Source: Trichormus sp. M33_DOE_039
GTDB lineage: Bacteria; Cyanobacteriota; Cyanobacteriia; Cyanobacteriales; Nostocaceae
Length of the DNA stretch: 59,630 bases
Direction: 5' to 3'
Assembly (NCBI GenBank): GCA_015296085.1
Contig: DVDT01000037.1
Location: 1 to 59,630, forward strand
The notes below the pieces were generated by a model, which worked only from the letters and a program-made list of their open reading frames with translations, was not told where the DNA came from and did no database searches. Of this stretch, positions 1 through 40,951 are shown in pieces; position 1 is the stretch's first letter; each line of letters starts with the position of its first letter. A program made the position numbers and the translations under genes.

Positions 1-865
1 AATTCCCATTTCTCCTGCTTATAGTAAACAAGACCCCGACTGTAGTAAGCATCAGCATACTGAGGATTAATTTTCAGAGCTTGGTTGAAATCAGCTAGGG
101 CTAATTCCCCTTTTTTCTGTTCATAGTAAACAAGACCCCGATTGTAGTAAGCATCAGCATACTGGGGATTAATTTTCAGAGCTTGGTTTAAATCAGCCAG
201 GGCTAATTCCCCTTTTTTCTGTTTATAGTAAAGAACACCCCGATTGTAGTAAGCATCAGCCAACTGGGGATTAATTTTCAGAGCTTGGTTAAAATCAGCC
301 AGGGCTAATTCCTGTTTTTTCTGTTCATAGTAAAGAACACCCCGACCTATGTAAGCATCAACATACTGAGGATTAATTTTCAGAGCTTGGTTTAAATCAG
401 CCAGGGCTAATTCCCATTTCTCCTGCTTATAGTAAACAAGACCCCGACTGTAGTAAGCATCAGCATACTGAGGATTAATTTTCAGAGCTTGGTTGAAATC
501 AGCTAGGGCTAATTCCCATTTCTCCTGCTTAGAGTAAACAAGACCCCGATTGTAGTAAGCATCAACATACTGGGGATTAATTTTCAGAGCTTGGTTGAAA
601 TTAGCTAGGGCTAATTCCCATTTTTTCTGTTCATAGTAAAAACTACCTCGATTGATGTAAGCATCGGCATACTGAGGATTAATTTTCAGAGCTTGGGTGT
701 AATCAGCTAGGGCTAATTCCCATTTCTCCTGCTTAGAGTAAACAAGACCCCGATTGTAGTAAGCATCAACATACTGGGGATTAATTTTCAGAGCTTGGGT
801 GTAATCAGCTAGGGCTAATTCCCATTTTTTCTGTTTATAGTAAAGAACACCTCGATTGTTGTAAA
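1..865 (-). repeat. 102-bp tandem repeats encoding identical TPR units
   Basis: The motif ggattaattttcagagc recurs at exact 102-bp steps (about 64, 166, 268, 370, 472, 574, 676, 778), so each unit encodes one 34-residue TPR. Units differ at only a few bases, far less than the older TPRs in the same protein. This indicates recent copy-number expansion at the DNA level. The array continues beyond the window edge. Confidence 0.9.
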
Positions 866-2945
866 ACGCAGCCCGAGGATTGATTTCAATTGCTTTATTG
901 ATTGCTGTTTCTGCTTCTATATACTGTTTTAAACTTTCTAAAAATCCAAATTTTTCGTTATACAAGTTTGGATTTTTTGGCTGGAGTTCAATTGCTTTTT
1001 CTATAGCTAATAACGCCTTTTCTGGTTGTTTTAAATCACGATAAATCAGTCCGAGCGATCGCCAAGCAGCAGTAAAGTCTGGTTTGAGTTTAGTTGCTGA
1101 CTCAAATGCAGCGATCGCTTCTTGATCTTTTCCGTTGTAACTTAATGCTAAACCCTTGCCATAATACGCTAAATAAACAAATGATGGTTTCAGTTTTATC
1201 GCTGCCTCAAATGCTTTAATTGCTTCTTCAAATCTCAATAAACGCCACAGTTGATTTCCTCTTTCTAACCATTGACTGGCTGTTGCATTTCCTTTAGAGA
1301 TATCTGTTGATAATATCGCTTCTTGAATCGACTTGATCTGTTGTGCGTTAAGTTGAGGTGGAGCAGTATTTTCTACTTTTTGCACTTGTACTCCCAATCT
1401 TGTTGCTAACCCTAAAAAGGTACTGGTTGGAATGCCTAAACTATAGCCTAGTTGTACTTGACCTCTACTACTACCACTATCTCCTGTTTTCTCATCAAAG
1501 GCTTGTTCTCCTTCTGCTCGTCCATGTATCCCAATCACTCTTCCTTGGGAATCTAATACAGCCCCGCCACTCATACCACCATAAGTTATGCTGGTGTAAA
1601 CTAACTCATATCCTCCGGTTAAGGAACTCACTGTTTGTAATGCACCAGAACTGTTAGTTTGAAAATCTGATTGCCTAGATTCTATTAGTCCCTGTTCTTT
1701 GTCAAAAATTATCCCCATTGTCAGCCGCCAAGGTGAATTATTCCCTAGTCTGGGATAGCCAGCAGTAAACATATAGTCAAAATTTTTGGGGTTATAGTTT
1801 GCTAGAGTTGCGACTTGATAGTTCTGATTAGGTGCAGTAAATTTAACAATCCCTAAGTCAACCCCTTCTTCTGTTTTAATCGTGTTTTTATCTACAGGAT
1901 ATTGTTTGCCATCTGGTGCAAGAATTTGGTAGCTAAAGTTACCGCATGGCTTAGTTGCATCTTCTCGTTCACAGACAACGTGCGCTGCTGTTAATACTGT
2001 GTATGTATCTCCATCTTTAGCAATAATTATTCCCGAACCATTAGCATTACTACTACTATCAATTCTGACAGTAATTTGTTTAGCTTTCTGTTCTATTTCT
2101 TCCAACCATCCGGTTAATTGTGTTGTGGGTATTGTGTAAGGTTGCTTTGGTAAAGGTAAGGAATAAGCAGTCAGAATCTCTGGTTTTACCTGCGCTAAGA
2201 AAGTAGAAATAGGTATTCCCCAACTGAGTTTCCGCATTTGTTGAATTTGTTCATCGCTGGGACGTGAACCATCGGGATAGACATAACCTGTATTTAAAAT
2301 CGGGTAAGCACTTCTACCATTTATTCCAATTATTTGTCCCTGGGAGTTAATAATTGCACCGCCACTCATTCCCTGTTCGATGTCGCTATTGTACCCGATT
2401 TGATAGCCTTCTTTGAGTGGTCTATCCCAAATTTTTTGCACTGTACCTATGCGAAATACTATCTCTCCTTTTGCAGCAGAATATCCCACTGCCATGACTT
2501 GTGTATCGGTATCAGGAAGGAAATTTGCTACTTCTTGTAAACAATAATTTTGATTGGTTTGGAATTGTAATAAGGCTAAATCAAATTTTTCAAAGTTGGT
2601 ATTGGTGACTATTTGTGCAGAATGTGTTTTACCATCAGATGTTTGCAAGCTAATACTTTTAACTCCACGGATTACATGAGAGTTTGTCAGCACTAGGTAG
2701 TTATTTCCCTGTTTACCTAGTAATGTTCCTGAACCCCCGTTGTTATCTCCTATTACCCTAACTGTAATGCGACTAGCTAGGGTTTTAAGTTGTTGGTTTG
2801 AATATTCTCCAGTCTCTCCGTTTTCTGCTTTAATTTCACAAGTAGAATTATCTGCTTTAGCAACAGTATAAGAAGAAGTTTTAATAGCAAAACTGGGTAA
2901 GGGTAGGAAAATTAAGGAGGTAATTAAGATAATGGTTTTTTTCAT
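1..2945 (-). CDS. Double trypsin-like protease with TPR array, paralog 2 (partial, runs off left edge)
   Basis: The frame opens with MKKTIILITSL at 2945 and stays open to the window edge, giving about 981 codons without a stop. A signal peptide (cleavage after PSFA) is followed by two trypsin-like domains. The first shows TNSHVI, FDLALL and GMSGG, the second TAAHVV, GVDLGIV and GGMSGG, so both His-Asp-Ser triads look intact. A TPR array follows, and its last part (about 1-860) is built from near-identical 34-residue repeats containing LALADFNQALKINPQYADAY. The protein is close to the gene at 3179-6028 over the protease part and clearly arose by duplication. Export and a protease role are inferred from the domains; the substrate is unknown. 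The C-terminus lies outside the window. Confidence 0.9.
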   Translation of the reverse strand, partial: MKKTIILITSLIFLPLPSFAIKTSSYTVAKADNSTCEIKAENGETGEYSNQQLKTLASRITVRVIGDNNGGSGTLLGKQGNNYLVLTNSHVIRGVKSISLQTSDGKTHSAQIVTNTNFEKFDLALLQFQTNQNYCLQEVANFLPDTDTQVMAVGYSAAKGEIVFRIGTVQKIWDRPLKEGYQIGYNSDIEQGMSGGAIINSQGQIIGINGRSAYPILNTGYVYPDGSRPSDEQIQQMRKLSWGIPISTFLAQVKPEILTAYSLPLPKQPYTIPTTQLTGWLEEIEQKAKQITVRIDSSSNANGSGIIIAKDGDTYTVLTAAHVVCEREDATKPCGNFSYQILAPDGKQYPVDKNTIKTEEGVDLGIVKFTAPNQNYQVATLANYNPKNFDYMFTAGYPRLGNNSPWRLTMGIIFDKEQGLIESRQSDFQTNSSGALQTVSSLTGGYELVYTSITYGGMSGGAVLDSQGRVIGIHGRAEGEQAFDEKTGDSGSSRGQVQLGYSLGIPTSTFLGLATRLGVQVQKVENTAPPQLNAQQIKSIQEAILSTDISKGNATASQWLERGNQLWRLLRFEEAIKAFEAAIKLKPSFVYLAYYGKGLALSYNGKDQEAIAAFESATKLKPDFTAAWRSLGLIYRDLKQPEKALLAIEKAIELQPKNPNLYNEKFGFLESLKQYIEAETAINKAIEINPRAAFYNNRGVLYYKQKKWELALADYTQALKINPQYVDAYYNRGLVYSKQEKWELALADYTQALKINPQYADAYINRGSFYYEQKKWELALANFNQALKINPQYVDAYYNRGLVYSKQEKWELALADFNQALKINPQYADAYYSRGLVYYKQEKWELALADLNQALKINPQYVDAYIGRGVLYYEQKKQELALADFNQALKINPQLADAYYNRGVLYYKQKKGELALADLNQALKINPQYADAYYNRGLVYYEQKKGELALADFNQALKINPQYADAYYSRGLVYYKQEKWE

Positions 2946-3007
2946 ATTATTTGTTGTGAAAAGAGAGTTGATGAATTTCACGCAGAGGCGCAGAGAGGAG
3001 GTTACTA

Positions 3008-3178
3008 TTACACTTCAAATATTCTGGTTTGTTGGGAATCGCCATGAGTCCGAAAGGAATCTGCTTGTAACCAATTAAGAAATTGCTGTTTGAGAATGTC
3101 TGCTTGAGTGTGACATTCGGTTTTCAGAGATTGAAATCCGATATTAGTAATTTGGTCTTTTTTAGGTTTGATGCGGTA
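3008..3178 (-). pseudogene. Coding remnant with a DUF1822-like tail between the two protease genes
   Basis: Directly after the stop of the 3179-6028 gene the same frame stays open for about 56 codons. It starts YRIKPKKDQ and ends DSQQTRIFEV before a TAA at 3008-3010. The last residues match the C-terminus of the neighbouring DUF1822 protein (DAQQTRVFEV). The flanking noncoding DNA (2946-3010) is nearly identical to that at 6029-6101. The piece looks like a leftover from the tandem duplication that made the second protease gene. The origin of its first 40 residues is not recognised. No convincing start codon was found. Confidence 0.5.
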
Positions 3179-6028
3179 TTATTTTTGTAACTGTTTTAAG
3201 AGATTTATAACAACTTCGTAACCAGCAGTATTACCTTGAGCTTGGAAAAGTTGGGCTGCTTGCTGTAAATCTTGAATAGCTTTTGGTTTATCACCTTTGA
3301 GAGTGTAAACTACTCCTCGCATTCCATAAGCTTGAGCAGACTGAGGATTAATTTTAATAGCATTACTAAAATCAGCCAGTGCTACATCCCATTTTTTCTG
3401 CTTATAGTAAATAACACCCCGACTGTTATAAGCTTCAGTAAAATCAGGATTAATCTTAATAGCTTGGTTAAAATCAGCGAGAGCTAATTCCCATTTATTC
3501 TGCTCATAGTAAAGAATGCCCCGACTGTAGTAAGCATTATCATAATCAGGATTAATCTTAATAGCTTGACTATACTCAGAAAGTGCTAAATCCCATTTTT
3601 TCTGATTAGCGTAAACAATACCACGATTGACATAAGCTATAGCAATTTTATGATCAATTTCGATAGCTTTGTTTGAATCACTAAGTGCCAAATCAAATTT
3701 TTGTTGAACAACGAAGACTGACGCTCTCAAAGCATAAGCATTAGCTAATTGAGGATCAATTTTAATAGCTTGGTTTAAATCAGTAAGTGCCAAATCAAAT
3801 TTTTGTTGAACAATATAAATAGACCCTCTCAGAAGGTAAGCAAGAACTGACTGAGGATGTATAGTAATAGATTGCTTTAAATCAGCTAATGCTAAATTGA
3901 ATTTTTTCTGCTCAATATAAATAGCTGCTCTTACAGAGTAACCTATACCCAGAGGAGTAAGTTTAATTGCTTCATTTATAGCTATTTCTGCTTCTGCATA
4001 TTTTTTCAATTGAACTAATAATATAGATTTTATACCATACATAACTGAATTTTTTGGCTGGAGTCGAATAGCTTTATTAATCGCTCCTAATGCTTTATCC
4101 AGTTGTTTAATTTCTTGGTAATACCAACTTAAATATCGCCAAGCTGAAGCAAAATTAGGTTGAGACTTCACGGATTGTTCCATCGCCAACACTGCCTCTG
4201 GATATTTTTTCAGCGTATATAAACTTAAACCTTTGCCATAGTAAGCTAAATGAATAAATACTGGCTGCAATTTTATAGCTTCATCAAAAGCTTGTACTGC
4301 TTCTTGATAACGGCGTAACCGTCTCAATTGATTTCCTCTTTCTATCCATTGACTTGCCGTAGCATTTCCTTTAGAAACAACTACTGATAATATTGTTGAT
4401 TGAATAATGTCAACTTTTTGTTGATTTAATTCTTGCGGTCTGGTAGTTTCTACTTTTTGTGGTTGCGTATTTAGTCGAGTTGCCATTGCTAAAAATGTAC
4501 TCACAGGAATACCTAAACTATTACCTAGCTGTACCATACCTCCACTACTACCAAAATCTCCTTTTTTTTCATCAATAGCAACTTCTCCCTCAGCACGTCC
4601 ATGAATACCAATTACTCTTCCTTGGGTATCTAAAACTGGCCCTCCACTCATTCCACCAAAGGTGATACTACTATAGACTAATTCATATCCTCCTGTTAAA
4701 GAAAATGGAAGTTTTAATTGGCTTAACCCACTACTTTGAAGATTTTGATAATCGGCTGATCTAACCGATATTAATCCTGATTCCTTATCATAAATCCGAC
4801 CCATTGTTAACCGCCAAGGTGATTTTCCTCTTAATCTGGGATAACCGGCAGTTAATACATAATCATCCTGGTTATAATTATACTTTGCCAAAGTAGCGAC
4901 TTCATATTCTACTGTACTTGTAAATTTCACTACTGCTAAATCTACACCTGTTTCTAGTTTAATGTTGCTCTTATCTACAGGATATCGTTTACCATCAGGC
5001 GCAGTGATTGTATAAGTACATTCTTCACATAATTTCTGGTCATCTTCATTTTTAGAAAACACATGAGCTGCAGTTAAAACAGTATAAATATCTCCTTCTT
5101 TAGCAATAATTACCCCTGAACCATTACCATTATTACTACTATCAATTCTGACGGTAATTTGTTTAGCTTTTTGTTCTAATTCACCTAACCATCCTGTTAA
5201 ATTTGGTTGAGATAAATCATCAGAAATAATTGGTACAGGTAGAGAATAAGCTGTCAGAATATCTGGTTTCACCTGTGCTAAGAAGGTAGAAATAGGTATT
5301 CCCCAACTGAGTTGACGCATTTGCTGAATTTCTTCATCACTGGGACGCGAACCGTCAGGATAGACATAACCTGTATTTAATATTGGGTACGCGCTTTTAC
5401 CATTTACTCCGATTATTTGTCCTACAGAATTGAGAATTACACCGCCACTCATTCCCTGTTCGATGTCGCTGGTGTAACCGATTTGATAACCTTCTTTGAG
5501 TGGTCTATCCCAGATTTGTTGCACTGTACCTGTGCGGAATACTATTTCGCCTTTAGCAGCAGAATATCCCGCCGCCATGACTTGTGTATCTGTATTGGGA
5601 AGGAAATTTGCTACTTCTTGTAGACAATAGTTTTGATTTGTTTGGAATTGTAATAAGGCTAAATCAAATTTTTCAAAGTTGGTGTTGGTGACTATTTGTG
5701 CGGGATGTGTTTTACCATCAGATGTTTGTAGACTAACGTTCTTAACTCCGCGAATTACATGAGAGTTTGTCAGAACTAGATAGTTATTTCCCTGTTTACC
5801 TAGTAATGTTCCTGAACCGCCGTTGTTATCTCCTCTCACCCTAACTGTAATGCGACTAGCGAGGGTTTTTAGTTGTTGTTCTGAATATTCTCCAGTTTCT
5901 CCATTTTCTGCTGTGATTTCACAAGTAGAGTTATCTGCTTTAGCAACGGTATAAGAGGAGGTTTTAATAGCAAAACTGGGGAAGGGGAGGAAAAGTAAGG
6001 AGGTAATTAGAATAATGGTTTTTTTCAT
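3179..6028 (-). CDS. Secreted double trypsin-like protease with C-terminal TPR array, paralog 1
   Basis: A 949-residue product when started at MKKTIILITSLL. The frame reaches back to 6130, but that extension overlaps the DUF1822 gene and would bury the signal peptide. The signal peptide ends near PSFA. Protease domain 1 has His at about 88 (TNSHVI), Asp at about 122 (FDLALL) and Ser at about 193 (GMSGG). Domain 2 has His at about 321 (TAAHVF), Asp at about 359 (GVDLAVV) and Ser at about 460 (GGMSGG). About ten TPRs fill residues 585-930. The TPRs here are diverged, unlike those of paralog 2. It is third in a minus-strand operon after the sigma factor and DUF1822 genes, with a 70-bp gap. It is probably a periplasmic or exported protease that docks protein partners by TPR; the substrate is unknown. 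Confidence 0.9.
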   Translation of the reverse strand: MKKTIILITSLLFLPFPSFAIKTSSYTVAKADNSTCEITAENGETGEYSEQQLKTLASRITVRVRGDNNGGSGTLLGKQGNNYLVLTNSHVIRGVKNVSLQTSDGKTHPAQIVTNTNFEKFDLALLQFQTNQNYCLQEVANFLPNTDTQVMAAGYSAAKGEIVFRTGTVQQIWDRPLKEGYQIGYTSDIEQGMSGGVILNSVGQIIGVNGKSAYPILNTGYVYPDGSRPSDEEIQQMRQLSWGIPISTFLAQVKPDILTAYSLPVPIISDDLSQPNLTGWLGELEQKAKQITVRIDSSNNGNGSGVIIAKEGDIYTVLTAAHVFSKNEDDQKLCEECTYTITAPDGKRYPVDKSNIKLETGVDLAVVKFTSTVEYEVATLAKYNYNQDDYVLTAGYPRLRGKSPWRLTMGRIYDKESGLISVRSADYQNLQSSGLSQLKLPFSLTGGYELVYSSITFGGMSGGPVLDTQGRVIGIHGRAEGEVAIDEKKGDFGSSGGMVQLGNSLGIPVSTFLAMATRLNTQPQKVETTRPQELNQQKVDIIQSTILSVVVSKGNATASQWIERGNQLRRLRRYQEAVQAFDEAIKLQPVFIHLAYYGKGLSLYTLKKYPEAVLAMEQSVKSQPNFASAWRYLSWYYQEIKQLDKALGAINKAIRLQPKNSVMYGIKSILLVQLKKYAEAEIAINEAIKLTPLGIGYSVRAAIYIEQKKFNLALADLKQSITIHPQSVLAYLLRGSIYIVQQKFDLALTDLNQAIKIDPQLANAYALRASVFVVQQKFDLALSDSNKAIEIDHKIAIAYVNRGIVYANQKKWDLALSEYSQAIKINPDYDNAYYSRGILYYEQNKWELALADFNQAIKINPDFTEAYNSRGVIYYKQKKWDVALADFSNAIKINPQSAQAYGMRGVVYTLKGDKPKAIQDLQQAAQLFQAQGNTAGYEVVINLLKQLQK

Positions 6029-6098
6029 ATTATTTGTTGTGACAAGAGAGTTGATAAATTTCACGCAGAGAAACAGAGGCGCAGAGAGGAGGTTAATA

Positions 6099-7028
6099 TT
6101 AAACTTCAAATACTCTGGTTTGTTGGGCATCGTAATGAGTTACGATAATTTGAAATTTTTCTCCTAATTCGGCACTAAACTCTAATTGAATCCAGTTATC
6201 TTCTTCTCTCGATATCACTTCTAAAACGTTTTCTCCTGATTCATCATGAATATTTAATTTCACTCCTTGAGGTAAAACATGATTTCCTACGGGATAGACT
6301 TGAGTTAAAATATCAACTTCTCCTTCAGAAGCCGCCGCAATTTTGACTACTAATGCTAAAGAAATCTGCTCTAGTTGCATTCCTAAATCAATTTTCTGTC
6401 CCCGCGTTATACTGACAGCACTCTTAAAAGATAATCCCAATTGTTGCGAGTTTAATATATGCTCAATAGTTTGCCAACTTGCATCGACAAATCCATCTAA
6501 CCATTGCCCAATTTTTACGAGATTTGATGATTCTTGATGCTGGGGAAATTTAGTTATTTCTAGTTCACTCAAATAAAGTAGAAAATCTTCTAATGTTTGC
6601 AACTGATTCAGAGGGATTTCGGCTTGAGCTTGGGTTGTAAAACCTAAAATTGTAGCCTCTTTTAATTCAGCATTGAATTGTACAGCAACATAACCGATTC
6701 TATCCTCCCAAACTTCCGGCGGTATTTCACAAATTTCTGCTTTTTGTAAAACTGGACGGCATTCTAATTTACCGAGATTCTTTACTTCTAAATCAGCCAC
6801 ATTCATCAATTGAATTGTCAGGCGATCGCGGCTATCACTAGAGAGCCAATCAGTCTCAAATCCCATACACTGGAGATAATAATCTACAGCATACACAGCT
6901 AAGGTATTGAGATAAATCTGTTGTCGCTTTTCAGGGTTAGCAATCCCTTGGCTATATTCCTGTGCGATCGCATGAGCTTTAGTTGATAGAGTCACGCTAA
7001 AAGTTAGTTGCTCAGTTATGCTATTCAT
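6099..7028 (-). CDS. DUF1822 family protein
   Basis: About 309 residues starting MNSITEQLTF. This start has GGGAGA nine bases upstream, while an earlier in-frame start at 7043 would put that ribosome site inside the gene. The sequence matches what I know of the cyanobacterial DUF1822 family: an N-terminal helical part with AVYAVDYYLQCMGFETDW, a middle with YVAVQFN, and a C-terminal beta-rich part ending QQTRVFEV. No catalytic motif or membrane segment is visible, and no biochemical function is known to me. It lies 41 bp after the sigma-like gene and 70 bp before the protease-TPR gene, so co-transcription is likely. A regulatory or adaptor role between the sigma factor and the protease is inference. 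Confidence 0.85.
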   Translation of the reverse strand: MNSITEQLTFSVTLSTKAHAIAQEYSQGIANPEKRQQIYLNTLAVYAVDYYLQCMGFETDWLSSDSRDRLTIQLMNVADLEVKNLGKLECRPVLQKAEICEIPPEVWEDRIGYVAVQFNAELKEATILGFTTQAQAEIPLNQLQTLEDFLLYLSELEITKFPQHQESSNLVKIGQWLDGFVDASWQTIEHILNSQQLGLSFKSAVSITRGQKIDLGMQLEQISLALVVKIAAASEGEVDILTQVYPVGNHVLPQGVKLNIHDESGENVLEVISREEDNWIQLEFSAELGEKFQIIVTHYDAQQTRVFEV

Positions 7029-7069
7029 AAGTAATTCTCCCAAAGTTTCATTATTAGTTAATTCAATTT

Positions 7070-7750
7070 CTATATATATTTCTTTAAGTAAGTAATAATT
7101 TTACGCATCCGTCGCTGGTAAAAGCTAGAAGCTGTCGAAATTGGTACACCCAATTCTTCAGAAATATCTTTCCACCGCTTTCCTTCCAAAACTAAAAGCA
7201 AAATAACTTGTAAATTTGCTTGCGGATAATCCTGAATATAGTCATTTTTTAAGATTTTTTCGGGATCATTCTCAATGATTTCTTTTAACTGTTGTTGCTC
7301 AGAAGATATCTCATTTTCTATGGGCAAATCTTTGTTGATTTCATCTAATGCCAGTACGGGAGCAACTTTTTGATGCTTAGGAAGCTGAGTTATTCCCCTT
7401 TTTTGGTCTTTTTTTGCTACATCAGAAATTCGCCGGGAAAAAATGATATTTACCCATGCCATCACAGGATGTTCAGGATTATATTGTTCAATTTTTTGAC
7501 AAATTTCTACGAATGTAATTTGTAATGCTTCATGATAATAATCTTCATAGTTGGGTGATTCCATCCACTGAGCTTGCTTACTCAATTTTCCAGAACCCCG
7601 AATTGCATTGATCAACTTATTTAAAGCTATGCGTCGCTTTGCTCTATCTGTGGGGTTTTGACTATCAGCCGGATATCGGTTGGCTTCATTTACTAGCTGT
7701 TGTAATTCTTGGTTGAGAGCGTCGTCTCTTAGGGGGAAATCATTCGTCAT
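7070..7750 (-). CDS. Sigma-70 family (ECF-like) RNA polymerase sigma factor
   Basis: About 226 residues from MTNDFPLRDD; an upstream in-frame start at 7768 is possible. A region-2-like segment (YYHEALQITFVEICQKIEQ then MAWVNIIFSRRISDVAKK) is followed by an acidic linker. The C-terminal region-4-like helix-turn-helix reads GKRWKDISEELGVPISTASS with RRMRKIITYLKKYI. This two-region plan is typical of extracytoplasmic-function sigma factors. It is first in the operon with DUF1822 and the protease-TPR genes, so it probably directs or responds to their expression. No anti-sigma gene is seen nearby unless DUF1822 fills that role, which is speculation. Confidence 0.85.
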   Translation of the reverse strand: MTNDFPLRDDALNQELQQLVNEANRYPADSQNPTDRAKRRIALNKLINAIRGSGKLSKQAQWMESPNYEDYYHEALQITFVEICQKIEQYNPEHPVMAWVNIIFSRRISDVAKKDQKRGITQLPKHQKVAPVLALDEINKDLPIENEISSEQQQLKEIIENDPEKILKNDYIQDYPQANLQVILLLVLEGKRWKDISEELGVPISTASSFYQRRMRKIITYLKKYI

Positions 7751-7813
7751 CTCACACTCCGATCGCACCAGTAGTTCATCCTCTATCTGGTTATCTTCCC
7801 GTAGCTTTGAGTT

Positions 7814-7984
7814 TTACGCAAAAGGAGTAATTTTTTGATCACGATGCCACCTATAGAATTTGGCGATCGCCCACTTGATTCCAGCGTAATCTTTTGTCTG
7901 CCAGTCAATCTTTGTGATTAGCCATCTCAGTACAGTCCTTGAAACTGCACAGATAGACTCATTCAAACTGAACTGCTGAAGTTT
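7814..7984 (-). pseudogene. In-frame coding tail after the stop of the 7985-8572 gene
   Basis: The frame of the upstream gene continues open after its TAG for about 56 codons (KLQQFSLNESICAVSRTV to KITPFA) and ends at TAA 7814-7816. A TTG could start a shorter piece. Tryptophan-rich stretches (RWLITKIDW, FYRWHRDQ) look protein-like, but no family is recognised. It may be a remnant or a small real ORF. Confidence 0.3.
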
Positions 7985-8704: not shown

Positions 8705-11608
8705 TTAGCTATCGTCGTTAGTCTTGGCTTCTAATGGCTCAAGAAAAGATTCAAGACACTCATGATCACGTAAATGTTGAGGTAAAGTCGTATCTTCAAA
8801 AGTAATACTAGCTTCACCATTAGCTGTGAGGGAATTAACCACAGCAACCTTGCCGTCCCTTTTTGAACCGAGACATCTGAATACTACCCGCATCCCTTGA
8901 GCAATTTTTGGGGCTGAACTGTTATAACTCTCATCGCTCCCCTGGGGTGAGTTAAGAGTGGTAGTTAAAACTGGTGAAATGACCACAGCTTCTTGATTTT
9001 GGACTTTTAACTCCTCTCCTTCAGATTTCTTAATTAAAACTGAGTTAAAAGTAGAGTTAAAAGTCTGTAATTCTTGTTCTGGAATAATTTCAGAGTTTTG
9101 ATTAGCAAGTGGAACAGAAACATTAGGGAGGGGGGACTGTGTGGTGTTTCTAAGGTAGACTTTGCGCCGGGGATTATTTGGGGATTTACGTTTACTGACC
9201 ATTCCTCGTTGATACATTTTGCATAATTCAACACCTATATTGTTTCCACCCACTGCATTCTGAATTTCTTCTGGTTCGTATCCTACCCCTGGATGCTGAT
9301 CTAAAAATTCTAAGATGCGTTGTCTTAAGGATTGGCTTTGTTGGGCATTATCTAGAGATTCACCAATATGTCCTAAGTTTTGAAAAACACCTGTAGTAGC
9401 GTCATACATAAGTTTCAAAGTTACAGGCTCATAACCTCTAGTTTTCGCCATTGAAAAAATTCGGTGAGGGTCAGATTGGTCTTTACTTGCCTTTTCTATT
9501 CGGTAGTGGAAACTCACACTACCAGCGATCGCAGTTGATCCAGATGCTCTGCTGACTCCTGTATCATCCTTATTTTTATTATCGTGGTGAACCCAGAGTA
9601 GAGTAGCTCCATAGCGAATAACCAGTCGTTCAACCTCTTTTAACCAGTGACCAATATACTCAGACTTCTCCTCAATTCCTAAAGGATTGATAATAGTTGC
9701 TCGAATGCTATCGATAATAACTAAATCAGGTTGAAATTCTTCTAACCATAACTCCAAGCTTTCTAAATCTTTAATAGTCCAAGCTGCCATATTACGAGTT
9801 TCACCAATGACCCGAATATTCGGCTCATTATCAAAACCTCGGTTTGAGAGGTAATTAGCAGTGATGTTGAGAGGCTGATCACTATTTATCATTAACACTT
9901 TACCCTTTCTAGTGTTTTCTCCTAGAAATGGATTACCAGTAACAATTGAATAAGCTAGGTCAGTAGTCAATAGGGTTTTTGCGGCTCCTGGCAAGCCAGA
10001 AAGAATACCACTGACACCCTTTGGTATAATTCCTTCTGCTAGCCAACTTAAACCTTCATTCTCAAGAGCGAATACTTCCTTGAGTGTTAGAGGTTGCGGT
10101 TTTTGTTGGTTTTGCTTTTCGGCAAAACGAATAGCTTGACACTGCTGCTCAAATTCCTTAATTGTTATGTGATATCGGCTAAGAATTCTATTACGTTCTG
10201 TGATCTGTCTCTGGGGATCTGTCTCACGCAAGTAAGCTATAATTTCAAGCTTTAATCTGCTTGAAAGAGAATTTCGGCGCAGAGGAGCTACAATTTTTCG
10301 CTCCCAAAAATAATCACTAAATCCTGCTTGTTGGCGGATTTTTTCAAGTTGGAGGTTTTCTTCTAGTTCATCTAAACCTTTATTAATAACGGTTTTTGCT
10401 CTTTCGATAGCTTCATTTTGAGTTAACTTAACTTCGGTAGTTTTATTATTATTTGTGCTTTTAATATTAGAGTAATTAGGGTTACTTGAATGTTGGTTAT
10501 TGATATCAGATAGAATTAACTTAATGTGTGATGGGCATTGAATATCATAGATTCCTTTGTCTAATTGACGAATTTTTAACCAGCATTTCTCCTCTCCTAC
10601 TTGAAACTGTGCAGATGGTTGGCTAGATTCTAAATCAATACTATTTATGATACGGTGTACTCGATCATCATCAATGTTTAAAATATTACCCCCCTGTAAA
10701 ACAATATCTTGTGCATTACCATTTAGTAATATTTTGTTTCTATTACACCAGTTCTGCCAACCAAAAGCTTCGTGAGCTAGTGCAGTTAATGCTTCACTGC
10801 GATCGCCTGTTGGATTATCTCCATCCAAAATATTTTTAGCTTTGTTTGCAAGCAACTTCTCTAGAGGAATACCAGCTTGTACAAAGTCAGTTTGCAGTGG
10901 TAATACAGGAGCTAAATAGTTTCTTTTGCTGGATGGATAAATACCGATAGATTCTAAATTTTCCACTTCTATTAATTCACCTCGTCTTATAGATTTATAA
11001 GCATTTCCAGATGGGCCAATAGTTGGGCTGAGAACTGTAAATCTGCCACCACTTAAAACTTCTCCTACGTGCTTTCCTCCAGGAGATAATGCAAAGTTTG
11101 TGAAATCAGGCTGATTTGTAACTTTTATGCCTAATCTGAACCCTCCTGAATGAGTTAGTTCAAAAAATGTCTTCTGCAAAGGTGGGTTATGTTCTAACCA
11201 CTGTAAAATTGTATGTTTGCAATCTTGTGGTGAGTTAAAATGCTTAACATCAAAATCAAGCCATACAGTTTTATTCCATCCGCCTAATGTTCCAACTCCA
11301 TTATCAGGATGAGCAAACCAAGTTTTTATTTCTTGTGATGTTGGTAATTTATCCTGATATTTTCGGTGTTGAATTAAGTGTGGAATTCCCTTTTTATCTA
11401 GGTAACTCGGATTTTTTCCTGTGTATAGTGGCTTAGGTGTTTTACAATCAGATTCACACTCAATCTTTCCGTTTTTATCTTTTCTAGGATACTTATATGG
11501 GTCTTGCTGGGGAGCAACTGGTAGTGAAGGGAATCCATTTTTATTCAGCCACTGAATTGTTTTGTTCCGCTCTAATAAGAAATTATTGTTGGTAGTGTTC
11601 AAAAGCAT
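8705..11608 (-). CDS. Primase-polymerase / RecA-like helicase replication protein of an integrated element
   Basis: 967 residues. The N-terminal third looks like a bifunctional primase-polymerase domain: VWLDFDVKH (DxD metal site) at about 115, SGGFRLGIKV and GGRFTVLSPTIGPSG further on. A RecA-like ATPase lies in the middle: Walker A GLPGAAKT near 536, Walker B LVIIDS near 630, and a WVHHDNK sensor region. A winged-helix-like part (HPGVGYEPEEIQNAV) and an SH3-like tail (GMRVVFRCLGSKRDGKV) follow. This plan is typical of plasmid and phage-satellite replication initiators, which prime and unwind DNA at their own origin. GAGGTG stands a few bases before the ATG. It sits between the HTH gene and the unknown protein at 7985 in the tRNA-Gly element. 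Confidence 0.85.
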   Translation of the reverse strand: MLLNTTNNNFLLERNKTIQWLNKNGFPSLPVAPQQDPYKYPRKDKNGKIECESDCKTPKPLYTGKNPSYLDKKGIPHLIQHRKYQDKLPTSQEIKTWFAHPDNGVGTLGGWNKTVWLDFDVKHFNSPQDCKHTILQWLEHNPPLQKTFFELTHSGGFRLGIKVTNQPDFTNFALSPGGKHVGEVLSGGRFTVLSPTIGPSGNAYKSIRRGELIEVENLESIGIYPSSKRNYLAPVLPLQTDFVQAGIPLEKLLANKAKNILDGDNPTGDRSEALTALAHEAFGWQNWCNRNKILLNGNAQDIVLQGGNILNIDDDRVHRIINSIDLESSQPSAQFQVGEEKCWLKIRQLDKGIYDIQCPSHIKLILSDINNQHSSNPNYSNIKSTNNNKTTEVKLTQNEAIERAKTVINKGLDELEENLQLEKIRQQAGFSDYFWERKIVAPLRRNSLSSRLKLEIIAYLRETDPQRQITERNRILSRYHITIKEFEQQCQAIRFAEKQNQQKPQPLTLKEVFALENEGLSWLAEGIIPKGVSGILSGLPGAAKTLLTTDLAYSIVTGNPFLGENTRKGKVLMINSDQPLNITANYLSNRGFDNEPNIRVIGETRNMAAWTIKDLESLELWLEEFQPDLVIIDSIRATIINPLGIEEKSEYIGHWLKEVERLVIRYGATLLWVHHDNKNKDDTGVSRASGSTAIAGSVSFHYRIEKASKDQSDPHRIFSMAKTRGYEPVTLKLMYDATTGVFQNLGHIGESLDNAQQSQSLRQRILEFLDQHPGVGYEPEEIQNAVGGNNIGVELCKMYQRGMVSKRKSPNNPRRKVYLRNTTQSPLPNVSVPLANQNSEIIPEQELQTFNSTFNSVLIKKSEGEELKVQNQEAVVISPVLTTTLNSPQGSDESYNSSAPKIAQGMRVVFRCLGSKRDGKVAVVNSLTANGEASITFEDTTLPQHLRDHECLESFLEPLEAKTNDDS

Positions 11609-11664
11609 TTGCTTACTTCACCTCTTTTTCCAAACCCATGTCATATATTTGGTTTGAATGCCGC

Positions 11665-11961
11665 TTATATCTTGTTGTTGGTAATCTTCTGGCATAAGTT
11701 ATTCTTCCTTCCTCTTTTCTGAGGTTGATTAGATGGAAGGGAGTAAAGATAGTTCTCAATCGCTCTTTGATGGGCTTGTGGATTATCCCTATTAGCAATC
11801 CAGTCGAGGATAAGAGAAAGGTTGTAAAGCGTCACTCTACAATTTACTTTTTGCCAATGGATTCCTTCTTGCCAGATACCTTGCAGTCGATATCGCTTGA
11901 AGGTTTCAGGTGATAACCCTATTTGTTCTGACAGTTGCCTTTTATTAACAAAATTGTTCAT
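11665..11961 (-). CDS. Small helix-turn-helix protein (AlpA/excisionase-like)
   Basis: 98 residues. The N-terminal winged-helix/MerR-like part reads VNKRQLSEQIGLSPETFKRY RLQGIWQEGIHW, a common layout in AlpA or excisionase proteins. A basic tail (PQKRGRKNN) ends the protein. It lies 56 bp upstream of the primase-helicase gene in the same direction. It is probably a DNA-binding regulator or recombination directionality factor for the element; which one cannot be told from sequence. Confidence 0.65.
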   Translation of the reverse strand: MNNFVNKRQLSEQIGLSPETFKRYRLQGIWQEGIHWQKVNCRVTLYNLSLILDWIANRDNPQAHQRAIENYLYSLPSNQPQKRGRKNNLCQKITNNKI

Positions 11962-12416
11962 CTTGGAAGAACTTTTAACGTAACTACTCCAATATGAATG
12001 AAATTTTCCTCTGTAACGCGAAAGCGACTTTTCTTTTGTAACCCTTGCCAGATAAGCATCTCAGCAAATAATATAAATTTTTCAATTAGATTACAGATGG
12101 CATCAAGCTTTTATTGACATTGCCTAGCAGACAACCCTTCTCTGCTTGTTGGAGAAGAAATAAATTCCGTTGAGCTTGTTTTTGTTACATTTCTACTTGA
12201 GCAGAAGCTGCATAAAAAACCCTTGCCGTTTCTGCAAGGGTTTGATGTCTATCAAGTTATTTGTGATTGATATTAGATACTAAGTGGAACATCAAAAAAT
12301 GTGTAATATCTATTACTCAAATGCTGCAACTCTGTAGTATCACTGAAATCTTTCTGTTCTGTGAGGGATAGGTGTTATATAAACAGATGGAAGCATTCTA
12401 AAAATTAAATAATTAA
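11962..12416. other. 455-bp intergenic stretch inside the putative element
   Basis: No convincing gene on either strand. It contains a strong terminator-like hairpin at 12217-12243 (listed separately). The HTH/primase operon promoter should lie near 11962-12100, but no clear -10/-35 pair was identified. Confidence 0.5.
12217..12243 (-). terminator. Rho-independent terminator
   Basis: The stem AAACCCTTGC / GCAAGGGTTT (10 bp, 7-base loop) is followed on the minus strand by a run of T. It sits downstream of the genes at 12417-14353, which read leftward. It resembles the hairpin behind tRNA-Gly at 14501-14534 (AACCCTTG/CAAGGGTT core). Confidence 0.75.
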
Positions 12417-13019
12417 TCACAATTCTTTTCTTCTACCTTGCCTCCGTATTTTTCCTTCCAAGAAAGCTCTAAATTTTTCACTTTTTATAAAAGCAGTAAA
12501 TTTCTGTCTATCACGAATAACAGGCATATAAAAATTCTTCCTAAATTCGTCATCATGCTCTGCTATTCTGATTGCAGAATTCATAATTCCCCAAGTATAA
12601 GGACTTTTTTCTCGTTCAAAAGGATTCTCACATCCTTGTAGTTCTCTATTTTGGTGTTGTCTAATAGCTAGATAATCCTTAACTCTCAGTTTCCCTCCAA
12701 TATAACTAGCAATAAAAACCATAAGTTCTCTTTCTCTTATCAAACCATATAGAGAAAATTCAGGAATATCAATAAAAGAAGTGCGGTAAAACATATTTTC
12801 GAGCATTTTAAACACAGATTGCCATAAATTCACCTCTAATTGGATAATAGGCATTAATTTTGTATTAGGCTTCCAATAGGAAAAATTAGAATCAATAGTT
12901 TGTCTACAGAATTCTCCCACCACTAACTTGTGATACCTGATTAATACCTTTCCTGTCACTATTTGTATGAGGTCTTGGTTTTTTTCTTCAGATGTAAGCT
13001 CATTTAAAACAAAAGCCAT
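12417..13019 (-). CDS. Unknown protein of the integrated element
   Basis: 200 residues from MAFVLNELTSEEK. The frame extends to 13106, but the extra residues are a Pro/Leu-rich stretch that looks untranslated. Neither start has a good ribosome site, so the N-terminus is uncertain. The protein is soluble, helical and basic, with a very basic end (KIRRQGRRKEL) that could contact nucleic acid. No known domain is recognised. It lies 146 bp downstream of the integrase gene on the same strand, probably as element cargo or regulation. Confidence 0.6.
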   Translation of the reverse strand: MAFVLNELTSEEKNQDLIQIVTGKVLIRYHKLVVGEFCRQTIDSNFSYWKPNTKLMPIIQLEVNLWQSVFKMLENMFYRTSFIDIPEFSLYGLIRERELMVFIASYIGGKLRVKDYLAIRQHQNRELQGCENPFEREKSPYTWGIMNSAIRIAEHDDEFRKNFYMPVIRDRQKFTAFIKSEKFRAFLEGKIRRQGRRKEL

Positions 13020-13165
13020 AACTAGCTTTGAATTACAGTTAACTAATGAAGGAAATGAAGGAAGAATTAGATACGGGCTGGGTAATATTAAGGTGTTTGT
13101 AATCATAACTTGAGTTCTTGTAATTTAATTAATTACTGTCTGTGAATCAAAGACAATCACGGCAA

Positions 13166-14353
13166 TTAGTCAATAGGGCGTAAATTAAGCATTTTTAGAT
13201 GATCGGCATAATGCTTTTCAATCATTGAAACACTGGTATCACACCACTTGGCTATGACTGATTCGGAAACGCCTTTCATAATCTGAAGAGTGATGAAGGT
13301 ATCTCTACAGCTATAAGGTGTAGTGTCGGGCTTAATGGGGTCAACAATTCGATCCCAGGCATTATTACAAAAATTGTTGTAGTTGATTACTTTACCCTTG
13401 GGACTAGGAAAAACCAACGCATCGAAATCGAGATTTTCAGGTTTTATAGATATCAGCAACTTTCTCAATCTTTCAGAGCAAGGAAATTGCCGTTTTCTGT
13501 TATTTTTAGAACCCTGGACTCTTGTAGGAATACCATTTCCCGATGTTGTCACTGATTCTTCAAACCGGATACAACCACAATCTTCTCTTATGTGCTTCCA
13601 TTGAAGCCCTATTGCTTCTGATGGACGGCAACCAGTCAAGAATAAGAATTCAACGAATGAAGCATAATGTCTGTAATTTATACCCGTATAGCCCCTACCG
13701 TTCCAATTTCCCCGGTGTTGTTCAAATGCTGCGATAATTTTTTCTCTCTCTTCTTCTGTAAAAGCATTGGGTTTAGGTTCTAATTGATAACGGTACTTTG
13801 GCATCTCGTTAGCCATACCCATATAAGGATTAGAGTCAATCAACTTATGTTTGACAGCCCAGTTGCAAGCTGCATTCAGTTGAGTCAATGCCCGTTTGGT
13901 TTGGCTTACTGTAGTTAGCTTCTCTAATTCTGCTTTCACTTTCAGGGCATCCAGTAATGGTATATCTCCCAAACGTTGAAAAAGTTTAGTAAAGCTATTG
14001 TGGTATGCCTTGGTTGTTTCCTTAAGACTTGATGATTTGTAATTTCTGTAACTTTCCCAAAGTTCTGTAATTTTGGGTATAACCTTGGGTGTAATGTCAG
14101 GTTTGGCGATTCTAAGTGCTGATTGGGGTTTGTACTTGGCCAGAGTTGAATCAAAATTTCCTGAAACAATATCCAATTCAATCTGATTTTTCTGTACTTC
14201 TGCTGCTTTACGGCTTATTTTGTTATCGGGTAAACCCAGCGATAGATAAAGCCTTTCCCCTCCATAGCGCAACCGTAGTTGTAAACGTCCATTGGAACTA
14301 AGAATGGAAACGTTTCCCTTGGGTACTTTACCTTTAGGTGTCTTACTGTACAT
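13166..14353 (-). CDS. Tyrosine recombinase / integrase
   Basis: About 395 residues starting at the ATG of MYSKTPKGKVP; a TTG at 14401 would extend it by 16 residues across the direct repeats. The N-terminus is an arm-binding-like domain (QLRLRYGGERLYLSLGLPD) and the middle a SAM-like core-binding domain. The catalytic domain has box-I Arg in FLTGCRPSEAIGLQW (about 238), box-II Arg in PYSCRDTF (about 347) and the nucleophile Tyr in IEKHYADH (about 380). The usual histidines of HxxR and LGH are replaced (YSCR, WCD). It starts 190 bp from the 3' end of tRNA-Gly, the classic place for an element's integrase. It likely catalyses integration and excision at that tRNA. Confidence 0.9.
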   Translation of the reverse strand: MYSKTPKGKVPKGNVSILSSNGRLQLRLRYGGERLYLSLGLPDNKISRKAAEVQKNQIELDIVSGNFDSTLAKYKPQSALRIAKPDITPKVIPKITELWESYRNYKSSSLKETTKAYHNSFTKLFQRLGDIPLLDALKVKAELEKLTTVSQTKRALTQLNAACNWAVKHKLIDSNPYMGMANEMPKYRYQLEPKPNAFTEEEREKIIAAFEQHRGNWNGRGYTGINYRHYASFVEFLFLTGCRPSEAIGLQWKHIREDCGCIRFEESVTTSGNGIPTRVQGSKNNRKRQFPCSERLRKLLISIKPENLDFDALVFPSPKGKVINYNNFCNNAWDRIVDPIKPDTTPYSCRDTFITLQIMKGVSESVIAKWCDTSVSMIEKHYADHLKMLNLRPID

Positions 14354-14376
14354 ATTTAATTGTTTTTCGTCTATTT

Positions 14377-14474
14377 TAGTACATATGTTCGTTACACCCA
14401 ATTTACACCCAATTTACACCCAAAATAACCTAAACTACCCCAAATCATTATCGATTTATGGTGCATATGTACTA
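14377..14474. promoter_or_regulatory. Integrase upstream region: 11-bp direct repeats inside an 11-bp inverted repeat
   Basis: Three head-to-tail copies of TTACACCCAAT (last ends AAA) lie at 14392-14424 with exact 11-bp phasing. They are flanked by perfect inverted arms TAGTACATATG (14377-14387) and CATATGTACTA (14464-14474). The set lies between the integrase ATG and tRNA-Gly. Candidate roles are integrase arm sites, excisionase or repressor sites. Confidence 0.6.
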
Positions 14475-14500
14475 TTAAAATAACTATTCAATAAAAACAA

Positions 14501-14534
14501 AAAACCCTTGTAAGTCTTGACTCACAAGGGTTTT
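14501..14534 (-). terminator. Rho-independent terminator of tRNA-Gly
   Basis: A perfect 11-bp stem AAAACCCTTGT / ACAAGGGTTTT with a 12-base loop; the minus strand continues into a T-rich run. It lies 9 bases beyond the tRNA 3' end. Confidence 0.85.
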
Positions 14535-14542
14535 AGTGTTTA

Positions 14543-14613
14543 AGCGGGCGGCGGGAATCGAACCCGCATTAATAGCTTGGAAGGCTATAGTTTTACCACT
14601 AAACTACGCCCGC
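14543..14613 (-). tRNA. tRNA-Gly (anticodon UCC)
   Basis: On the minus strand the acceptor GCGGGCG pairs with CGCCCGC. The anticodon stem ATAGC/GCTAT encloses loop CTTCCAA, giving anticodon TCC. The T arm is GCGGG TTCGATT CCCGC. The discriminator is T and the CCA end is not encoded. Length is 71 nt. It is the probable attachment site of the element to its left, whose integrase lies next to its 3' end. Confidence 0.95.
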
Positions 14614-39457: not shown

Positions 39458-40951
39458 CTACGCCACGCCTTTGGCGATCGCCTGCAATAAGTCCTCAAAA
39501 TCTGACTCGCTGTGAATATCAGGAGTGAGCGTATTCATGTCTTGGATAATATCTACTAATCCATCAATAGTAGCTCTGATTTCTGCATATTCATCGATTG
39601 AACGTCGTAGACTAGGTACGTTAGCAGAAGAAGATAGTGTTTTTATTTTAGTTTCTAGTTCCTGGATTTTTATTTCCCAATGAATAACATAATCTGCACG
39701 CTCACTAGGATCAAATATCTTTGCATCTGGTAACACAATTGGAAAAATCCGGTTATAAAAATTACCATTCTTAGCAATTTGTACCAATTCAAACATGCAA
39801 TTAGGAGACTTTAAATACTTATCACTAATCACAGCAATTACACATTTACCACGTCCAATCTTTTCCATGAAAGTTTTAATCAGTCCTTTGTAACCCAAGT
39901 TGCGCTTATCTCGAACGATAGTGATACCTTGGGACTGCAATAATTGATCTAGACTATTAACATAGGTTTCACTGTCTCCACCCCAAGCATAGGAAATGAA
40001 GATTTCTGTCTCATATGCTAATGGAAATATAATATTATTCGTCTTAAATCGATTAGATAAATAATAATTAATAATTTTGGAAGGATGACTTAATTTTTCC
40101 CATGTATCACCTGAAATTTCAAGAGGAATATGCAACTCGTCATTAGAACGAACGTCTAATTTTTCGAGTTTAGATAGTAGCTGCATTCTCAGTGGCAGCT
40201 TTATCAGCCTATTTTTTTCAATATCAATGGTTTCCAGGTTTATCAGTTTGCCAATCTCTGCTGGCAATTGTGTTAATTGATTATTGCTGAGAAAAAGTTG
40301 AGTGAGATTAATAAGTTGACCAATCTCTAATGGCAGTGTTCTTATTTTATTGCCACTAAGACTTAGAACACTAAGATTGATAAGTTTGCCAATCTCTTTG
40401 GGTAGTGTCAAGAGTTGGTTTTCACTCAGTCCAAGCAAGTTCAAGTTAGTAATTTTACCAATCTCTTTCGGTAACGTCCTAAGTTGATTGGAATAGAGAT
40501 ACAATTCAATAAGATTAATAAGTTCACCAATTTCTGATGGTAATCTTATTAACTGGTTTGCACTTAAGCCAAGCACACTAAGATTGAAAAGGTTGCCAAT
40601 TTCTGAGGGTAGTGTTCGCAGTTGGTTAGAATTTAGACGTAATTCATTAAGATTGAAGAGGTTGCCAATTTCTGATGGTAGTATTCGTAGTTGGTTAGAG
40701 TTTAGATGTAATTCATTGAGATGGACGAGTGCGCCAATCTCTGGTGGTAGTATTTGCAGTTGGTTGGAGTTTAGATTTAATTCATTGAGATTGATGAGTT
40801 CACCAATTTCAGATGGTAGTGTTGTGATTTGATTATTGTTTATATCTAGTATACTGAGGTGAGTAAGTTTATTAATTTCTATTGGTAAAGTTCGTAGTTT
40901 ATTGTAACTCAAATTTAATTTATTGAGGTTGATGAGTTCACCAATTTCCAC
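39458..40951 (-). CDS. LRR-TIR protein, downstream part of an interrupted gene
   Basis: 497 residues if translation restarts at a GTG. About twelve leucine-rich repeats of 23 residues (pattern INLNELNLNSNQLQILPPEI) are followed by a TIR domain starting ETEIFISYAWGGDSETY. The TIR part includes VIAVISDKYLKSPNCMFELV, whose Glu matches the catalytic residue of NADase TIRs. The frame continues upstream through LRR sequence to a TAA at 41006-41008 and beyond to 41254, so the gene is split by one stop. Bacterial TIR proteins often cleave NAD or make signalling nucleotides in anti-phage defence. That role and continued function are inference. Confidence 0.85.
   Translation of the reverse strand: MEIGELINLNKLNLSYNKLRTLPIEINKLTHLSILDINNNQITTLPSEIGELINLNELNLNSNQLQILPPEIGALVHLNELHLNSNQLRILPSEIGNLFNLNELRLNSNQLRTLPSEIGNLFNLSVLGLSANQLIRLPSEIGELINLIELYLYSNQLRTLPKEIGKITNLNLLGLSENQLLTLPKEIGKLINLSVLSLSGNKIRTLPLEIGQLINLTQLFLSNNQLTQLPAEIGKLINLETIDIEKNRLIKLPLRMQLLSKLEKLDVRSNDELHIPLEISGDTWEKLSHPSKIINYYLSNRFKTNNIIFPLAYETEIFISYAWGGDSETYVNSLDQLLQSQGITIVRDKRNLGYKGLIKTFMEKIGRGKCVIAVISDKYLKSPNCMFELVQIAKNGNFYNRIFPIVLPDAKIFDPSERADYVIHWEIKIQELETKIKTLSSSANVPSLRRSIDEYAEIRATIDGLVDIIQDMNTLTPDIHSESDFEDLLQAIAKGVA

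Follow-up and report, generated by a model that had tools for sequence, protein, structure and literature searches.

The left end of the window, which is the whole of contig C13 (59,630 bases) of a 7.0-Mb cyanobacterial genome, carries on its minus strand a four-gene operon encoding an extracytoplasmic function (ECF)-like sigma factor, a DUF1822 protein and two double-trypsin proteins with tetratricopeptide repeats (TPRs), here called trypsin-TPR 1 and trypsin-TPR 2. The sigma factor and DUF1822 are a cognate pair, as shown by their neighbourhood and co-divergence, and it is well supported that the genes preceded by a shared promoter-like element form one regulon. We propose, with our confidence evenly poised, that the locus is part of an autoregulated sigma regulon in which DUF1822 would restrain the sigma factor, a caspase-like CHAT protease would relieve that restraint, and the sigma factor would then amplify itself and the secreted trypsins.

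A preliminary description of this DNA gave the four minus-strand genes correctly, and its gaps of 41 bp (sigma-DUF1822) and 70 bp (DUF1822-trypsin-TPR 1) are exact. The two large double-trypsin/TPR proteins that it listed are both present, but the fourth gene is incomplete, because the contig ends inside its array of 102-bp TPR repeats. The third gap, 233 bp between the two trypsin-TPR genes, is no ordinary spacer and carries a CHAT relic joined to a duplicate of the DUF1822 3′ tail. The sigma factor scored 43.6 bits with the TIGR02937 profile, narrowly above the cut-off of 42.9, and 23.2 bits with Pfam Sigma70_r4_2, under the cut-off of 25.7; its 17 relatives are 33-86% identical to it. Among the relatives of DUF1822, the N- and C-terminal halves are conserved and the middle segment varies in length (alignment A1). 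The most hydrophobic 19-residue stretch of the window DUF1822 averages 1.37 on the hydrophobicity scale, and this protein and the sigma factor both look cytosolic.

A DUF1822 match was detected in 240 of the 386 genomes of a phylum-wide sample, in 226 of them above the cut-off. The 120 stretches that were read were chosen among the highest-scoring DUF1822 matches listed, a sample that leans to well-scoring DUF1822. Neighbours were counted with CHAT and trypsin models only (C14 caspases were seen afterwards) and for DUF1822 open reading frames (ORFs) of at least 250 aa, which excluded two of the 19 named loci (L236 and L242) and the short second copies in L145 and L158. Of the 121 DUF1822 genes, 101 were preceded by a sigma gene in the same direction whose end lay at most 600 bp upstream, as against none of the 673 control ORFs (at least 250 aa, same stretches). 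CHAT genes were found directly downstream of 75 of the 121 and of 18 of the 673 controls, with 8 further CHAT genes nearby. The preliminary description had expected DUF1822 genes to recur beside sigma factor and protease genes, and this survey did not refute it. Taken together, a sigma gene and an adjacent effector gene flanked 58 DUF1822 genes, a sigma gene and a nearby effector 7, a sigma gene only 36, an adjacent effector only 17, a nearby effector only 1, and neither of them 2.

The count of 20 out of 121 without sigma may be too high, because an upstream gene in L118, L130 and L154 (477-481 aa), and in L011 of the window's own genome, is a possible diverged sigma factor. In these four loci, a gene of 474-481 aa (L011:11217-12641) occupies the usual sigma position before DUF1822 and has a C-terminus that resembles a helix-turn-helix by eye, and could be a sigma factor that has diverged. 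In many of the loci L094-L113 and in L009 of the window's genome, DUF1822 genes of about 320 aa lack a sigma neighbour and adjoin a CHAT gene instead, often with a second one upstream. Among the sigma-only loci, L053 and L084 carry an adjoining C14 caspase with nSTAND1, and L073 encodes an nSTAND1-WD40 protein with an N-terminus that is caspase-like in appearance, no caspase being among its best 25 matches listed. The window's genome contains six DUF1822 genes, four with sigma just upstream and four with CHAT or trypsin just downstream. In the named relatives of the window DUF1822, sigma was present in all 17 loci that were long enough; downstream of these, a trypsin gene followed directly in 7 and lay nearby in 4, and a CHAT gene followed directly in 5 and lay nearby in 1.

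The trees of the two proteins mirror each other. For 122 sigma-DUF1822 pairs, the distance matrices correlated with an r of 0.880, whereas swapping sigma factors within the 31 multi-module genomes (1000 tries) gave a mean r of 0.460 and a maximum of 0.674. DUF1822 is also the natural link between sigma factor and protease, because it is common to the sigma-only and the CHAT-only loci. The interpretation in the preliminary description is thus upheld in part: the genes belong together, and DUF1822 lies between a sigma and a protease gene.

How DUF1822 might exert its effect is suggested by two described systems, as far as the available parts of their publications go. In type III-E Craspase, Csx30 binds and inhibits CASP-sigma and is cut by the TPR-CHAT protease Csx29 (PMC10028731), and the anti-sigma factor CalpT is cut by the CalpL protease (PMC11417357). 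Because of these parallels, and because of the linking position of DUF1822, we propose that CHAT relieves its action; by analogy, DUF1822 would be a protease-cleaved sigma inhibitor. It is somewhat unlikely that DUF1822 is instead an activator or adaptor needed by the sigma factor, or an uncut scaffold coupling sigma to CHAT. The 36 of 121 loci in which sigma and DUF1822 were found with no CHAT or trypsin gene nearby would suit such a role, as would the term TPR protein, i.e. a binding scaffold, given to DUF1822 in the available text of PMC8195603. However, its closest parallels, Csx30 and CalpT, are protease-cut inhibitors, although this is an analogy only.

The 14-locus alignment of the regions 5′ of the sigma genes contains a common block, TTTTGCGTAAAA-N11-GGGAAGATACCAGAATAGA, with GCATAAAA in L229 and L232. 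In the window's genome, the element core occurs once without mismatch and at two places with 3 mismatches (reversed-pattern control, 0). Searched with at most 2 mismatches, the pattern GCGTAAAA-N11-GGGARGATANCAGA, which does not match the window's own site, was found at 18 places in 17 of the 145 family genomes (reversed control, at least 1 among the matches listed). Six new places were inspected: four are followed by a sigma-model match, one of them truncated, and two (L249 and L252) by only a sigma-like start, judged by eye. A looser pattern was present at 14 of the 18 window-type sigma genes and at 2 of 1001 other ORFs.

The element is not restricted to sigma genes. GCGTAAAA lies 5′ of the CHAT gene in 7 out of 11 loci, with a one-base variant in L230, and the spacing to ATAGA at the CHAT sites of L204, L224, L225, L226 and L253 is 24, as at sigma (by eye). 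In Iningainema (L228), some 820 bp lie between DUF1822 and the detached trypsin gene, which carries an element copy of its own. The upstream regions of its trypsin and sigma genes are alike over only about 65 bp, comprising the element and a preceding TGTAA block, and therefore do not reflect a broadly duplicated flank. A matrix built from sigma sites alone was scanned over 1.42 million positions. At 8 bits or more it gave 9 non-sigma matches, of which 7 fell in the 600 bp preceding a module gene (a trypsin gene in 5 cases, a small secreted gene in 2), such regions making up 3.0% of the positions (binomial P 7.5e-10; reversed control, 2 matches). With a matrix from five CHAT sites, the sigma upstream regions of four loci at a greater distance (L235 and L237-L239) ranked above any match away from module genes. 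Since one element precedes the sigma gene, the CHAT gene in most relatives, a number of detached trypsin genes and the small secreted gene, one regulon is likely. The element was rejected as a general mark of DUF1822-linked sigma genes, as it is confined to the window-type sigma clade. Viral contigs yielded one exact match, which was taken as chance, the nearby genes being unrelated to the module.

The element could alternatively be the site of another regulator, with the sigma gene merely one member of its regulon; we consider this rather improbable. The length of the element and an upstream TTTTGTAA block, common to many of the loci, speak for such a site. The restriction of the element to the window-type sigma clade points the other way, as do the new GCGTAAAA-N11-GGGARGATANCAGA places, all six of which lead into a sigma-model match or a sigma-like start. 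In addition, an ECF promoter fits a spacing of about 16 between its two parts, which is that of the element halves.

The preliminary description missed a caspase-like gene: in close relatives, the operon runs on into an 'apoptosome-like' CHAT-nSTAND1-WD40 gene. L230 and L231 have sigma, DUF1822 and double-trypsin TPR genes followed by a gene of 142 aa, CHAT (about 1570 aa) and lastly a gene of some 283 aa, which in L231 is a TPR gene by Pfam. L226 has the same order through the CHAT gene, where the stretch nearly ends; the 142-aa gene is missing in L224 and broken in L233. The relatives' CHAT gene after the trypsin gene is about 1500 aa long. The nSTAND1 and WD40 domains were confirmed by Pfam in L226, L253 and contig C62 of the window's genome; the remaining relatives were judged by CHAT match and length. 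The Aulosira laxa NIES-50 plasmid L253, typed as conjugative, carries sigma, DUF1822, trypsin-TPR, CHAT-nSTAND1-WD40 and TPR genes in this order, and the module can therefore probably move between strains. The CHAT gene is probably the trigger.

The caspase content of the window itself is a 130-bp relic in the third gap, 94.6% identical to the start of the CHAT gene on C62 and fused to the copy of the DUF1822 3′ end. The window copy has therefore been rearranged, through a duplication of the trypsin gene that left part of CHAT between the two copies. The intact CHAT-nSTAND1-WD40 gene is on C62, a contig that starts in the TPR repeat where the window ends, in register by eye. C62 very probably adjoins the window end and would continue the operon into this intact copy, with the reservation that the repeat can be aligned at several different offsets and that further arrays of this kind exist in the genome. 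Also on C62, a gene for the circadian oscillating protein COP23 lies between small trypsin and double-trypsin TPR genes (L204:10147-10812, 10813-11967), and several relatives have a gene of about 190-220 aa in this position. Within the gap, CCTCTCTGCGCCTCTG at 2983-2998 recurs at 6074-6089, giving two exact copies, and a further copy has 2 mismatches (0.03 expected). It is probably an intergenic repeat that was copied along with the DUF1822 tail.

A reading of the window copy as a rearranged leftover of the module in the course of decay is improbable in our view. The relic and the duplicated DUF1822 tail within the operon are compatible with decay, and related loci show it: the sigma and DUF1822 frames are broken in L236, the sigma gene is truncated in L248, and in L249 a sigma-like start is followed by an unrelated transposase-like ORF (by eye). 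However, the four window genes are open and under purifying selection, with ratios of non-synonymous to synonymous substitution rates (dN/dS) of 0.12-0.24 and 0.34 for one pair, the promoter element is intact, and the same genome holds an intact CHAT gene.

The CHAT proteins were compared in 49 sequences (48 chosen of the 73 listed with an N-terminal CHAT, plus L226); 10 further CHAT proteins have the domain at the C-terminus. The His and Cys columns of CHAT are invariant in all 49. Their C-terminal domains vary, with CHASE2 in 31, Peripla_BP_6 in 12 and nSTAND1 in 3; the assignment of the N-terminal module to EACC2 was judged from domain order only. CHAT proteins with CHASE2 or Peripla_BP_6 look like receptors with an inward protease.

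Both large proteins match Trypsin_2 (PF13365) in two stretches each, scoring 147.9 and 141.9 bits over the whole protein with a cut-off of 27.6. The His and Ser motifs were found by scan in all four domains. For the Asp motif, the scan succeeded in the first domain of each protein, whereas in the second domains the motif (VDLAV and VDLGI) was identified by eye, because the scan pattern did not admit V. The two His-Asp-Ser domains per protein of the preliminary description are thereby confirmed, and each has a signal-peptide-like start, as judged by hydrophobicity and not with a trained predictor: the N-terminus (MKKTIILITSL...FA) is hydrophobic and of signal-peptide type, and the listed double-trypsin proteins of more than 450 aa begin in the same manner. 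Copies 1 and 2 differ with a dN/dS of 0.20. Among trypsin halves the ratio is mostly 0.16-0.24, with one pair at 0.34, indicating purifying selection, and the TPR arrays vary in length. The earlier suggestion that TPR expansion reflects selection for new partners is not borne out: the arrays do vary, yet the trypsin halves are constrained. In PADLOC, the trypsins gave partial matches to LmuA models, with 94.7 bits at most, and to RT-Protease models, with 83.3 bits at most, which were attributed to the shared peptidase fold. No PADLOC model matched DUF1822 at E up to 1, and one matched the sigma factor, at E 0.011.

The trypsins probably lie outside the cytosol. Given their signal-peptide-like starts and the cytosolic look of sigma factor and DUF1822, they are unlikely to be a sensing arm acting on DUF1822, and as the detached trypsin gene bears the sigma-type element, they look like targets; outputs are the more likely role. 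It is very improbable that they sense envelope stress and signal it inward to free the sigma factor, like DegS-RseA in the sigma-E pathway of Escherichia coli: the trypsin-like fold, the signal-peptide-like starts and weak HtrA/DegS-type matches (TIGR02037, 62.9 bits; DegS, 42.2 bits; both far under the cut-offs) would allow it, whereas no membrane-spanning partner was seen in the window operon (DUF1822, with 1.37 in its best stretch, should sit in another compartment), the detached trypsin gene carries the sigma-type element, and no PDZ is among the Pfam families listed for the trypsin proteins (best 25 of 26 and 25 of 27).

In the cascade that we propose, the ECF sigma factor would be held in check by DUF1822, the putative point of action of the caspase-like CHAT protease. 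The sensor in the window's subfamily would be a CHAT protease joined in one protein to an nSTAND1 NTPase and to WD40 propellers; this domain order, which is apoptosome-like, was seen in three proteins. When the sensor fires, the cytosolic CHAT would cleave or displace DUF1822 and thereby free the sigma factor. The freed sigma factor would use GCGTAAAA-N16-GA, the element found before its own operon and before CHAT, trypsin and small secreted genes, and would in this way boost its own level together with that of the twin trypsins on TPR scaffolds, whose secretion is predicted.

Several observations weigh against this proposal. Of the 121 loci, 36 are sigma-only and 17 have an adjacent effector but no sigma gene, and in 17 of 147 DUF1822 proteins one stretch reaches the hydrophobicity of a membrane helix. 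The correlations that involve CHAT barely exceed the swapped maxima (65 cases, 11 genomes with swaps): r is 0.631 for DUF1822-CHAT, with a swapped maximum of 0.619, and 0.371 for sigma-CHAT, with a swapped maximum of 0.362. Sigma and DUF1822 are therefore a tight pair and CHAT a looser partner. A simple His/Cys pattern is met by 75 of the 83 CHAT genes that adjoin DUF1822. A search for kinship of DUF1822 to solved structures, by its profile against PDB sequences, gave a circular tendon repeat protein (E 5e-4) and TM0487 (E 0.75), both taken as chance; Csx30 was not among these two matches, its presence in that library being unchecked. As to the element, it is absent from the CHAT genes of L227, L228 and L229, and its second half differs in L231 and L233. 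In the sample, the looser pattern was found at a single one of 29 short-type sigma genes and at none of the 75 long-type sigma genes or the 60 CHAT genes. At lower matrix thresholds, 8 of 15 matches (5 bits) and 9 of 31 (2 bits) fell at module genes, with 4 and 7 in the reversed control. Four of the seven trypsin or small-gene matches sit 132-495 bp before the predicted start, and the matches are not fully independent, since L209/L225, L222/L232 and L208/L209 come from the same or close genomes. Finally, purifying selection on the trypsin halves alone does not prove function in this strain.

The core gene set was reported in 2021 (eLife; PMC8195603), and the kind of system is therefore already known. 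The available text of that paper describes EACC2-caspase genes with variable C-termini, trypsin-like peptidases among them, beside ECF sigma and DUF1822 genes, and suggests that the sigma factor mediates the response. Like that system, the window has an ECF-type sigma gene beside DUF1822 (TIGR02937 and PF08852). Similar arrangements are seen in window relatives and, in the phylum sample, at many of the 75 DUF1822 genes that adjoin CHAT, but the same text makes no mention of separate signal-peptide double-trypsin TPR genes, a small secreted companion, a shared element or co-divergence, and in the window the caspase gene is a relic, with its intact copy on another contig. DUF1822 is also named in a strain comparison (PMC9679502, available in part). 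The preliminary placement among conflict systems accords with the 2021 description and with the CHAT-nSTAND1-WD40 neighbour of relatives.

Other systems share part of the logic, again as far as their available texts go. Craspase (PMC10028731) likewise combines a CHAT protease, an intermediate protein and an ECF-type sigma factor, and has CASP-sigma motifs within its own locus (positive autoregulation), but the likeness of DUF1822 to Csx30 is one of analogy. Membership of the sigma factors in CAS_III-E_sigma (NF041236) was rejected: the best score listed was 19.9, of the L010 sigma, with a cut-off of 100 bits, 5 of the 18 sigma proteins of alignment A2 matched at E of 0.01 or less (best 6.2e-05), and the window sigma was not among the matches at E up to 0.1. 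CalpL-CalpT-CalpS (PMC11417357) joins protease, anti-sigma and ECF sigma in a three-part defence cascade, a likeness by description; its protease is, unlike CHAT, a SAVED-Lon protein switched on by cyclic tetra-adenylate. The STAND/caspase and STAND/trypsin conflict systems (PMC7159879, PMC10907252) share nSTAND1, CHAT, trypsin and beta-propellers or repeats in multicellular bacteria. However, 'sigma factor' is absent from the main text of PMC7159879 and 'sigma' from PMC10907252, and window-type trypsins look secreted, on TPR scaffolds. The trypsin-TPR form, the regulon element and the co-divergence were not found in the literature searched, most candidate papers being judged by title; the trypsin version and the shared control signal appear to be new.

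Table 1. Features of the operon and its surroundings, in window coordinates.
Feature	Position	Strand	Description
Promoter-like element before sigma	7778..7825	minus	TTTTGCGTAAAA-N11-GGGAAGATA...ATAGA, 75 to 28 bp 5′ of sigma ATG; 14-locus alignment and matrix site
ECF-like sigma factor gene	7070..7750	minus	226 aa from ATG 7750; longest ORF from 7768
DUF1822 gene	6099..7028	minus	309 aa from ATG 7028; PF08852, 228 bits
Trypsin-TPR 1, double-trypsin TPR protein, probably secreted	3179..6028	minus	Trypsin_2 twice and TPR, hydrophobic N-terminus
Signal-peptide-like start of trypsin-TPR 1, 20 aa	5969..6028	minus	Hydrophobicity; alike in relatives
Trypsin domain 1 of trypsin-TPR 1	5357..5854	minus	His TNSHV, Asp FDLAL, Ser GMSG; motif scan
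Trypsin domain 2 of trypsin-TPR 1	4571..5161	minus	His TAAHV and Ser GMSG scanned; Asp VDLAV by eye
Relic of N-terminal part of CHAT-nSTAND1-WD40 gene, 130 bp	3050..3179	minus	94.6% identity to C62 (L204:1057-1186)
Copy of DUF1822 3′ end, spacer and trypsin gene start (duplication footprint)	2941..3049	minus	86% over 117 bp to window 6024-6140
Trypsin-TPR 2, double-trypsin TPR protein, probably secreted, cut by contig end	3..2945	minus	ATG 2945 to beyond position 1
Signal-peptide-like start of trypsin-TPR 2	2886..2945	minus	Hydrophobicity
Trypsin domain 1 of trypsin-TPR 2	2274..2771	minus	His TNSHV, Asp FDLAL, Ser GMSG; motif scan
Trypsin domain 2 of trypsin-TPR 2	1494..2078	minus	His TAAHV and Ser GMSG scanned; Asp VDLGI by eye
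Tandem array of 102-bp TPR units, running off contig	1..864	minus	TRF: 8.5 copies, 88% matches

A likely integrated element lies by the operon (8705-14613), with a phage-type integrase gene (13166-14401) beside a tRNA-Gly gene (14543-14613), an excisionase-like gene (11665-11961) and a gene for an AAA/Prim-Pol protein (8705-11608). A search of the window for a direct copy of the tRNA-Gly 3′ end, which could mark an attachment site, was negative, and the phage records gave no match to the window DUF1822. Further along, the window encodes an M50-type membrane protease fused to TPR repeats (36938-39235) and a protein with leucine-rich repeats and a TIR domain (39458-40951), an immune-receptor-like combination.

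A wider reading, which we advance tentatively and with some doubt, is that DUF1822 proteins are widespread protease-relieved sigma inhibitors. Filamentous cyanobacteria would have several receptor-CHAT cascades in parallel (CHASE2, periplasmic-binding or STAND-WD40), each freeing its own sigma factor, Craspase-like without CRISPR, and the window's subfamily would release twin trypsins as an alarm acting on the surroundings or on filament neighbours. DUF1822 as an inhibitor is a concretely testable idea, with the promoter element as its read-out. If true, bacterial caspase and STAND sensors would be linked to a transcriptional response, and the logic of Craspase would be seen outside CRISPR.

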